Shown here one piece after another: positions 18,904 through 49,382 of a stretch of 64,000 nt of DNA (positions are counted from its first letter, which is position 1; every line of letters starts with the position of its first letter). Position numbers and translations under genes: made by a program. The notes under the pieces are model-generated. The model was not told the origin of the DNA. It saw only the letters and a list, made by a program, of their open reading frames with translations, and searched no databases. Location: assembly GCA_029261135.1 (NCBI GenBank), contig JAJDBX010000075.1, positions 1 through 64,000 on the forward strand. Direction: 5' to 3'. The stretch is from Nitrospirota bacterium (GTDB lineage Bacteria > Nitrospirota > Nitrospiria > SBBL01 > JAADHI01).

Positions 18904-19141
18904 ATGAAAACGCAGGTTCTATTGATTGCTATTCTATCCACATTTTTTACTTTTTCGATGGTCGATGCCGTTCCTTATTGGTTTACCTGACTTTTTTATT
19001 ACTTCCCATGAAACCATGGACAAGGGCGCAAAAACAGTCGTGACCTTCGTCCCTTTTAAAAATGGTGGTTTTAGCTATCACTGTATTTTGGAGAACCACC
19101 GCGAGATGGGCATGGAGGGAGAACTCATTGTCATTCATTGA
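18904..19141 (+). pseudogene. Cupredoxin (plastocyanin-like) gene, internally deleted and frameshifted
   Basis: The ATG at 18904 opens a clear signal peptide (MKTQVLLIAILSTFF...MVDA) that ends at a TGA near 18990. A second frame then carries the end of a cupredoxin: KGAKTVVTFVPFKNGGFSYHC, followed by ILENHREMGMEGELIVIH, with the Cys, His and Met copper ligands of a type 1 site. The part expected between them (the first His ligand and several strands) is missing, so there is a deletion as well as a frame change. It lies between the diheme cytochrome and the FMN protein. Originally it was probably a small periplasmic blue-copper electron carrier. Confidence 0.75.
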
Positions 19142-31671: not shown

Positions 31672-31688
31672 GCCATAAATACGACTCG

Positions 31689-31719
31689 GGGGCGTTCTCA
31701 ATTAACGTGAACGGTTCCT
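31689..31719. mobile_element. Solo transposon end identical to the MITE at 47965
   Basis: 31 bases starting GGGGCGTTCTCAATTAAC are identical to the left end of the complete small element at 47965-48124, including 13 bases beyond the terminal repeat. No inverted partner was found downstream, so this is a solo or decayed copy. Confidence 0.7.
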
Positions 31720-32189
31720 AGAGATCTGGATGGAAAAAGAAACAGGTTTTGACTGAAAAATGGTGGCAGTTTCCTTCCATGCCGAACAGATAGATTGCAG
31801 GGTCGCTGGCGGGGTCGAGTTTTCTCATGGCCCACTTTACATGTATTCCCGCAAATATAAGATCCTTTTTATCTTTTGGCGATTCCAATAGGTGGCGACC
31901 ACTGGACTCAGGATGGATTGAATAGAATGCAATAGGGAGAAATTTTATAAAAAATGAAGGTCTAAAAAACTGAAACAATGTTTATGCTGTAATACCCCAA
32001 ACAAAATATTGCTCGTAATAAAAAAGAAACCTCCTGTCATGGCAAACTACTAGAAATAGGAAGGCGCAAAGCTATGGATCTTTACCCGATCGCCGGGCCA
32101 CCAAGGTGACATTGATTTATTGTCAATTGGGTGACCTTTTTTTATCATGGTTTTAAAAATAGGCCGTGAATTAGAGGTAATTTCGTAAT
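31720..32189. other. AT-rich intergenic region next to the solo transposon end
   Basis: About 470 bases with no accepted gene. A minus-strand frame (31718-31978, 86 residues) ends at the transposon end and lacks a ribosome site and any recognised motif; it may be a fragment of a decayed gene. The rest shows nothing clear. Confidence 0.3.
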
Positions 32190-47764: not shown

Positions 47765-47839
47765 TGGGGCGTCGACAAGTGGCAAGTCACGAGATTTTGG
47801 CTCTCGCATTCCCAGGTTCGAACCCTGGCGCCCCAGCCA
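47765..47839 (+). tRNA. tRNA-Gln (TTG anticodon), CCA encoded
   Basis: Acceptor TGGGGCG (47765-47771) pairs with CGCCCCA, followed by discriminator G and encoded CCA. The D stem is GAC/GTC, the anticodon stem CGAGA/TCTCG with loop TTTTGGC giving anticodon TTG, and the T arm CCAGG-TTCGAAC-CCTGG. It reads CAA/CAG. A T-rich stretch follows at once and may end transcription. Confidence 0.97.
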
Positions 47840-47964
47840 GTTTTTTCTTCTCTGAGTGCTTCCAAGCATTGAATCAACCCCATAGACCGAGACATCTACT
47901 CTTCACCGATGCTTGTCCCTTTTTTCGCATTTAAAAATAGTTTGTATTTTGTCGATAGTGCTTA

Positions 47965-48124
47965 GGGGCGTTCTCAATTAACGTGAACGGTTCCTTTTCT
48001 GTTATTTTCATCCCTGACTGCGTTAGTTTCTCTTTGCAATGGCTGGCATTGTGTCCAAAAACTGACCTTGTCAGAACATAAAATCCCTAAAAAATGCACT
48101 CTCCCAGTTAATTGAGAACGCCCC
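47965..48124. mobile_element. 160-bp MITE-like element with 18-bp terminal inverted repeats
   Basis: GGGGCGTTCTCAATTAAC at 47965-47982 and its exact reverse complement GTTAATTGAGAACGCCCC at 48107-48124 bound a 160-base segment with no coding capacity. The first 31 bases are identical to a solo end at 31689. It must be moved by a transposase encoded elsewhere; the family was not assigned. TAGTG occurs on both sides (47956-47960 and 48126-48130), offset by a few bases, so a target duplication is only possible. The rest of 47840-48408 shows no gene. Confidence 0.85.
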
Positions 48125-48408
48125 CTAGTGAACTGAATTGAAATAAACCTGGGCTTGAGTCTGGATAACACTGCTCCCGCCTAAATGACCGATCCATGTT
48201 TCCCGTCCAATAAAATTCTTTAAAAAGGGCAATTCTCCTTGGTGAGGCCCCCTCATCGGCGGTTTTTGGGTATATTAAAAGATAAGAATTGCTCCAAAAT
48301 ATTCTTCCGCACTAACTCATCCAGGTTCCATTGTCTCATTAAAGATTTTGGAATAAAATGCCGATAAATAGAGATAGGTGGAGTTGTTGTGTCAAGGACG
48401 CAATCATT

Positions 48409-48738: not shown

Positions 48739-49382
48739 ATGAAAAAAAATGGGCGGGTCTTTCTTTATTTCTTATTGCTTATCTCGGTCAGTGATTATTT
48801 ATGGGTACACTCAAATTCTAAAGCCCGACAAGCTCACATTAATTTAGCACCATTAGAACAAGTTTGCTTGAAAGAGCCCAGACCACTCCCATTGTCAGAT
48901 TTTCAACTCACAAGCCATAATAATCAAGCCTATCGCCTCAAAGATCTTCAAGGAAAATGGCGTATTGTCCTCTTCGTTTACACCGCTTGTCCCGTTTTTG
49001 TCCGCTCACCCTTCGCTTACTCACACAAGCACTGGATGAGCTAAAGGGAGAAGGAGAAGCCCCAATCCCAGAGGCGATCTTTATCTCTATCGATCCCGAA
49101 AGAGACGTGCCCTCGAAGATTACCGCTTTTCTTGCTCCCATACATCAAGATTTAATTGGACTGACGGGTACACATACGGAATTGAAGAAGCTCATCCAAT
49201 CTGTTTGATCCGATTATCAAATCGACAAGCTAAAAGATGAGATCTCAGTGAATCATCCGACAACTCTTTATTTCATTAATCCATCAGGTCAGCTCACAAG
49301 TATGTTTAGTAACATTTCACAAAGCACACAATTAAAGCATGATATTAAAATGGCCATGAGTGAAACGCACAATAATATCTAG
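48739..49382 (+). pseudogene. SCO1/SenC copper chaperone gene, frameshift plus stop
   Basis: The ATG at 48739 (GAAAGGG upstream) starts an exported SCO1-type protein: an N-terminal anchor, LSDFQLTSHNNQAYRLKDLQGKW and IVLFVYTACPVF. Adding one T to the T-run at 48995-48999 restores CPVFCPLTLRLLTQAL, with the CxxxC copper site, followed by IFISIDPERDVPSKI and LIGLTGTHTELKKLI. A TGA at 49206-49208 interrupts, then the same frame runs on (HPTTLYFINPSGQL) to a stop at 49380-49382. The original protein would deliver copper to cytochrome oxidase. Two lesions make it a pseudogene unless the T-run is an assembly error. Confidence 0.85.

Follow-up and report, generated by a model that had tools for sequence, protein, structure and literature searches.

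It is by their ends that MITEs are usually defined, whatever lies between being regarded as filler in decay. Among the described systems, MITEPsy1 of Pseudomonas syringae is a 100 bp element with 18-bp terminal inverted repeats (TIRs) that has been observed to transpose; according to the passages that describe it, it produces a 4-nt duplication of CTAG or YTAA and its ends are like those of the IS5-family ISPsy2 (PMC3189936). QMITE1 of Coxiella burnetii is presented in its description as a long palindromic MITE that is transcribed and has variable ends with a conserved core (PMC5896051). The intergenic repeats of Pseudomonas fluorescens are characterized as hairpin-forming and MITE-like, and the inverted repeats of R0 and R2 match insertion sequence (IS) ends (PMC2718517).

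We have analyzed a window of 64,000 nucleotides, the whole stretch of DNA presented here, which lies on contig C73 of a Nitrospirota genome. The element found in it (Table 1) resembles MITEPsy1 in the 18-bp TIRs, the adjoining CTAG and the IS5-family ends, and differs in that the TIRs of MITEPsy1 read GGAAGGTCTGAAAAAGCC and that the passages on that element describe no hairpin core or interior common to several end types (PMC3189936). By eye, the MITEPsy1 ends resemble the GGAACCTCTGATTAAGTC type that we have found in the genomes G002, G004 and G005. QMITE1 may be a parallel case, likened by description only, although it is about 400 bp long, contains an IHF site and is reported as unique to C. 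burnetii (PMC5896051). The P. fluorescens repeats, as there described, can be likened, again by description and not by sequence, to the 264-bp Pseudomonas elements with two hairpins mentioned below (PMC2718517). We consider it very probable that the window contains an IS5-linked MITE inserted at CTAG, carrying a structure-conserved hairpin core that is common to MITEs with other ends.

Table 1. Positions of the MITE, its parts, its neighbours and its relatives in the genome (positions are those of the window unless a contig is given)
Feature	Position	Strand	Remark
MITE, complete copy, 160 bp	47965-48124	.	exact TIRs; two further full copies in the genome
Left TIR, 18 bp	47965-47982	+	GGGGCGTTCTCAATTAAC, exact
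Right TIR, 18 bp	48107-48124	-	GGGGCGTTCTCAATTAAC, exact, 18/18
Left flank CTTA	47961-47964	.	would be the place of the CTAG target copy; differs from the right flank
Right flank CTAG	48125-48128	.	read from the sequence
Conserved core hairpin, 76 nt	48006-48081	-	models R1 and R2; common to MITEs with other ends
Left loop motif AAGG	48066-48069	-	AAGGT in the window, AAGGC in the C35 and C40 copies
Right loop motif AACGC	48020-48024	-	conserved unpaired motif
tRNA-Gln(TTG)	47765-47839	+	125 bp upstream of the MITE; neighbour, outside the element
37-bp remnant, CTCG + 29 bp + CTAG	31685-31721	+	earlier taken for a solo end
Full MITE copy, 159 bp	C35:47185-47343
Full MITE copy, 158 bp	C40:95237-95394
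Truncated MITE copy	C40:25600-25715
IS5-family insertion sequence, 830 bp	C31:4845-5674		CTAG on both sides; same 16-bp ends as the MITE

The MITE, its copies and its remnants

The element at 47965-48124 is a MITE. Its length falls within the 50-500 bp expected of such elements, it has no transposase gene, and the only ORF of at least 60 aa that overlaps it (65 aa, minus strand) starts outside. The window contains four matches to the TIR sequence GGGGCGTTCTCAATTAAC with up to 3 mismatches against 0.07 expected (100 shuffles, none of which reached 4). Over the whole genome (3.22 Mb in 77 contigs) this 18-mer has 7 exact copies and 15 places with up to 3 mismatches, compared with 3 for the control pattern read backwards. 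Twelve of the 15 are accounted for by three full MITEs, one truncated MITE, three 37-bp remnants and one 830-bp IS; the others (on C4, on C77 and the fourth match in the window, at 19133) have 3 mismatches each and look like chance.

An earlier note on this DNA had described a 160-bp MITE with perfect 18-bp ends, one of a family of small non-autonomous elements, and had proposed a search of the genome for further copies and for an IS with the same ends. Both were found, in the form of the dispersed copies just listed and of the transposase-bearing element described below, and the description stands. The suggestion that the family was active recently enough to stay identical is not supported, since identity is true of the TIRs only. 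Because the full-length copies are 91-92% identical to each other overall, the 8-9% of divergence does not support a recent amplification of the family. The neighbourhood is the one that had been announced, with a tRNA gene and broken genes: besides the tRNA-Gln, a SCO1/SenC gene at 48739-49208 is split between two frames (profile positions 2-34 in one ORF and 36-101 in the next), which makes it either a pseudogene or an assembly error. The full copy on C40 (95237-95394) starts four bases (CGAG) after AAAGGAGGATTTTATG, as if just past a start codon.

The piece at 31689 contains the exact 18-mer (31689-31706, plus strand) and shares the 31 bases of 31689-31719 with the left end of the MITE, as had been reported, although it is not a plain solo end. 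In it the first 29-31 bases of the left MITE end adjoin the right flank, with 2 bp of microhomology at the join and mismatches confined to the left flank; the best reading is a whole MITE copy that has lost its middle. A similar piece on C41 (318922-318958) fits a deletion junction at a 5-bp GAACG repeat, and the joins of both are what slippage across a palindrome would leave. Two more pieces, C71:12014-12050 and, in G004, a genome classed in the same genus as that of the window, C21:32026-32062, fit the deletion of copies from their own genomes with 3 mismatches at best. This poor fit, together with the fact that all four pieces measure 37 bp including flanks even with different joins, could mean that they are tiny transposons in their own right, with 29 bp between CTAG-like targets. 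We find this improbable in view of the junctions of the window and C41 pieces, and in DDE transposition two ends need more than 29 bp between them to be synapsed in cis. An internal deletion is the reading that we keep for the window piece. Very short end-paired palindromes with CTAG on at least one side, further shrunken forms, were seen in Pseudomonas and Parendozoicomonas (L069 3477-3527, 51 bp; L075 1002-1055, 54 bp; L100 6808-6886, 79 bp; L116 21-50, about 30 bp). About 310 bp downstream of the window remnant there is a c-di-GMP-I riboswitch aptamer (32031-32105, Rfam RF01051, 43.6 bits).

A probable IS5-family partner and its presumed target site

The transposase had been noted as absent from the window, and the IS with the same ends is located on another contig of the same genome, C31. 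It is read in two overlapping frames that meet at a run of eight A. The two halves match the NCBIfam model NF033580 (IS5 family, transpos_IS5_3) with 129.3 and 160.7 bits, the cut-off being 110, and contain the domains DUF4096 and DDE_Tnp_1 of an IS5-type DDE transposase. No other relative of this transposase was detected in the same genome at E 0.001. Two relatives found on plasmids (Marinobacter and P. veronii) are 73% and 71% identical. The elements to which they belong measure 827 and 831 bp, have similar ends and are also accompanied by CTAG. Because their transposases are likewise read in two pieces, the frame break in C31 is probably a programmed ribosomal frameshift. Since the MITE and the C31 IS share their ends, the IS most likely moves the MITE in trans: the transposase, made from the two overlapping frames by the probable frameshift, would recognise both ends of the MITE and insert it at CTAG. 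What the MITE has in common with IS5-family ISs of the NF033580 kind is the 16-bp ends and the CTAG flanks; unlike them it lacks a transposase. An origin of the MITE by internal deletion of the C31 IS was rejected because, by eye, only the ends are common.

CTAG is present on both sides in 36 of the 64 distinct end-paired elements, and the window copy is flanked by CTTA and CTAG. As CTAG is its own reverse complement, the flanks alone cannot separate a target duplication from a longer TIR. We infer that CTAG is duplicated as the target, leaning on the trapped insertions of MITEPsy1, which in the passages that report them duplicate CTAG or YTAA (PMC3189936). The comparison of fetched loci gave no empty site for 87 elements, and four genomes of the same genus gave none that was usable: the intergenic DNA is too diverged there, the tRNA-Gln is retained, and alignment of the flanks is confined to the surroundings of the tRNA, joined in G003 by a stretch of the preceding gene. 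REP and REPIN elements have as hallmarks a GTAG foot and a RAYT (Y1) transposase, and the architecture of TIRs and CTAG with a DDE partner points elsewhere.

The same ends were found in other genomes. At least 116 stretches of GTDB genomes contain the 20-mer CTAGGGGGCGTTCTCAATTA, with hosts that include Pseudomonas, Thiodiazotropha, Thiosymbion, Endozoicomonas, Porticoccus and one Candidatus Manganitrophaceae genome. The window MITE gave no blastn match to plasmids and phages, nor did the exact end pattern appear in viral contigs.

Fold and conservation of the core hairpin

We have compared the hairpin inside the MITE, its most unusual feature and one that the earlier note does not mention, with those of two sets of elements. 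The first (A1) contains 19 cores, that of the window included, all from MITEs with the GGGGCGTTCTCAATTA end, chosen by a motif and inner-stem rule (inner five or six pairs) and aligned without use of the fold. Actually, 18 of its 20 consensus-fold pairs have changed on both sides, and the outer six pairs, which were not used in picking, were paired in 108 of 114 cells. A covariance model built from A1 only (R1) has its sole hit in the 64 kb, up to E 1, at the window core (46.6 bits, E 2.8e-11), a member of its training set. The second set (A4) was gathered with R1 and is thus a cross-check, not a blind one; it contains 29 cores of MITEs with other ends, for which RNAalifold gives the same consensus fold with 20 of 22 pairs compensated. 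Pairing reached 92.1% of the cells in A1 (62.8% shuffled, 37-45% with partners slid) and 92.9% in A4 (58.5% shuffled, 35-44% slid, and 45% in a further slid-register control), figures that are inflated in both sets by the way the cores were picked. Two weaker measures were only modestly above their shuffles in A4, the pairs changed on both sides being reached by 13 of 500 shuffles and the pair types by 26 of 500. A model from A4 (R2), built without any element of the window's end type, recovers the window core at 30.5 bits (E 3.8e-5); its score for the C40 copy is 51.7 bits.

The loop bases are nearly invariant, while nearly all the stem pairs around them vary. In elements from several hosts, CAAGG and AACGC are separated by 44-45 nt in 50 of 52 cases (the search accepted anything from 38 to about 65), and CAAGG was located 53-55 bp from the element end in 51 of 52, with surrounding stems that differ widely in sequence. 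The core is conserved as structure more than as sequence. A single hairpin is found in the core-bearing elements that measure roughly 157-168 bp, and a back-to-back pair in the Pseudomonas elements of 264 bp. Integron attC sites carry GTTRRRY-type boxes, and an attC-like site was rejected here as no such boxes were seen by eye. With Rfam 15 no curated family matched over the MITE in the window, eight loci with such elements gave tRNAs only, and one Pseudomonas element gave only sub-threshold miRNA hairpins. We found no description of the hairpin family in the open-access literature, as far as the accessible parts of the sources go, the review PMC10969869 included; the end string GGGGCGTTCTCAATTA had no occurrence in the open-access papers searched, and for shorter end strings none of the matches listed was on MITEs by title.

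We have also counted the wobble pairs, over 154 hairpins, having set aside any whose length fell outside 72-83 or that lay too close to the end of a locus. In the lower stem the ratio of G·T to A·C was 111 : 8, compared with 21 : 17 in the arms just outside the model (94 clusters); clustering at 60% identity gave 36 : 4 and 12 : 5. With strong hits only (90, hand-chosen, some near-duplicates and hits near locus ends left out) the values were 47 : 1 and 13 : 9 (Fisher p 6e-5), then 23 : 1 and 8 : 4 after clustering at 70% (p 0.03), and 14 : 1 and 4 : 2 at 60% (14 clusters, Fisher p 0.18, not significant). Where a single strand folds, G·T pairs in it can be tolerated but not A·C, which is the same change read on the other strand; the counts support the CAAGG strand as the one that folds, as RNA or single-stranded DNA, and a bias driven by the model may contribute to them.

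An ordinary MITE lineage might leave a comparable picture if the hairpin were an inherited palindrome, with template switching keeping the arms complementary and the loop motifs preserved by descent without function. The folded elements do form long palindromes, the arm mismatches outside the core show no strand bias, as a DNA-level process gives, and arm correction may be weak close to the centre, which is where the loop motifs are found. We nevertheless regard this origin as rather unlikely, in view of the invariance of the loops amid changing stem pairs, of their spacing and of a wobble bias confined to the core; besides, arm correction would tend to erase mismatched loops. In the explanation that we prefer, the MITE interior is not random filler but contains a hairpin of 76 nt whose stems change in compensation while the bases of the internal loops stay fixed. 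This hairpin would itself be selected for, probably in the form of a folded single strand (a transcript or single-stranded DNA, on the CAAGG...AACGC strand).

The movement of the elements is another matter. We have examined 58 elements of 100-300 bp with the ends of the window MITE, 35 of them core-positive by the motif rule and four more (L001, which is the same copy as L217, L077, L161 and L167) by R1. Another 19 are Thiosymbion MITEs that have the same ends without the core by the motif rule, and R1 gave 0 hits at E 0.1 on the 15 loci that hold them. Eight Thiosymbion loci (L092, L094, L110, L119, L134, L139, L144 and L174) contain elements of 143-172 bp with the same ends and other interiors (e.g., CGCAGGCGTCCCGCCTGC), again with no R1 hit. 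Because these MITEs carry no core, the core is, judging from their sequences, not needed for mobility.

Distribution of the core and change of its ends

At E 1e-4 or better, R1 gave hits in 99 of the 274 genomes of Gammaproteobacteria and in 11 of the 198 of Nitrospirota. These genome-scale counts scored only 17-24 candidates per genome, making the copy numbers lower bounds, and the model is not indiscriminate, since 187 Nitrospirota genomes gave no hit. To the ends of the elements we devoted 167 of the 175 R1 hits (six in the overlapping loci L188, L189, L218 and L240 and two at a contig end were left out), which collapsed into 110 groups and 104 distinct places; TIRs were sought without a preset sequence. 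A separate delimitation of elements went as far as L282, whose end match is poor (9 of 16), and left out L283-L289, L294 and L295. Ends were well matched (score of at least 14 of 16.5) at 81 of the 104 places and below that at 23. The core is located 41-47 bp from both ends at 65 of the 81 well-ended places, and among the 16 that remain there are some in which the end search halted within the TIR.

By single linkage the ends GGGGCGTTCTCAATTA, GGGGTGTTAACAATTA, GGCCTGTTAACACT and GGCGTGTCGACATT join in one cluster, mostly of G-rich ends adjoining CTAG, with 59 of the 81 places (63 of 85 before the removal of duplicates); the loci are best-scoring hits, so that these proportions do not amount to a census of end kinds. 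Outside of it are GGAACCTCTGATTAAGTC (8 of 81), TATACCCGTTGCACGTG (4), AGAGCCTGTC (2), CTAG followed by TACTCC (2) and six single cases, CAGCAACCACCC among them. Two of the single cases are by eye of known kinds, L202 of the main type and L115 of the TATACCC type. L115 comes from a gammaproteobacterial genome bin with an accession similar to that of the Candidatus Manganitrophaceae genome; a MITE there, the closest relative of the window MITE, agrees with the C40 copy at 109 of 126 interior positions, which reflects either horizontal transfer or an error in binning. A core hairpin from the same bin (L115, 1762-1835) is found in an element with ends ACCCGTGG and CGTTTGAGATTTAGG, probably of the TATACCC kind.

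The ends may differ only because TIRs have drifted together with their transposases inside one IS5 lineage, with no exchange at all. We see almost as much reason to accept this as to doubt it. The main cluster fits it, most ends of the CTAG type being alignable to each other, and so do the partners. The likely partner of the GGGGCGTTC ends is the C31 element; that of GGCCTGTTAACACT is an 806-bp element in the genome G231 whose end, GGCGTGTTAACACT, has one mismatch, and the two halves of its transposase give 101 and 104 bits with NF033580, just under the whole-protein cut-off of 110. The N-terminal parts of the C31 and G231 transposases are 32% identical over 104 residues. The changed ends also stay in register: in six elements of G002, a genome of the same genus, 84-91 of 120-126 interior bases (69-73%) agree with the C40 copy and each end agrees at 8-9 of 16 positions, and in a seventh (L236) the values are 87 of 125 for the interior and 3 and 7 of 16 for the ends. 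Ends that are half alike within a genus (50-56%) make gradual change or coevolution possible in place of exchange. Against drift as the only process, the end types listed above remain outside the cluster, and different ends coexist within single genomes (G002, G004, G101 and G103). For the end types outside the main cluster no partner was found. Both likely partners known so far are IS5-family elements.

Our preferred explanation, which is less certain in these parts than in the linkage of the MITE to the IS, is that the hairpin is under selection and that the lineage keeps going because the transposase-recognised ends around it are changed or exchanged. As its most likely role, the hairpin would fold compactly, either in transcripts that read through the element or at the replication fork, and so would protect the element or make its insertions tolerable. 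A further-reaching proposal takes the hairpin of 76 nt itself for the true selfish unit. It would be a module of structured RNA or single-stranded DNA, with a biochemical activity or host partner of its own, and would have reached two phyla by taking up, time and again, the transposase-recognised ends of different ISs; we put this forward as a tentative and rather doubtful idea.

The MITE of the window is ordinary in its likely mode of movement and unusual in its core, common to MITEs with other ends across two phyla. The usual pattern of MITEs is reversed here, the interior being stable and structure-conserved and the ends variable. Should this be confirmed, a structured mobile module that has gone unrecognised would be present in about a third of the Gammaproteobacteria sampled, in many copies in some of them, and the question would be raised of what job the hairpin does and how a non-autonomous element changes the enzyme that moves it.
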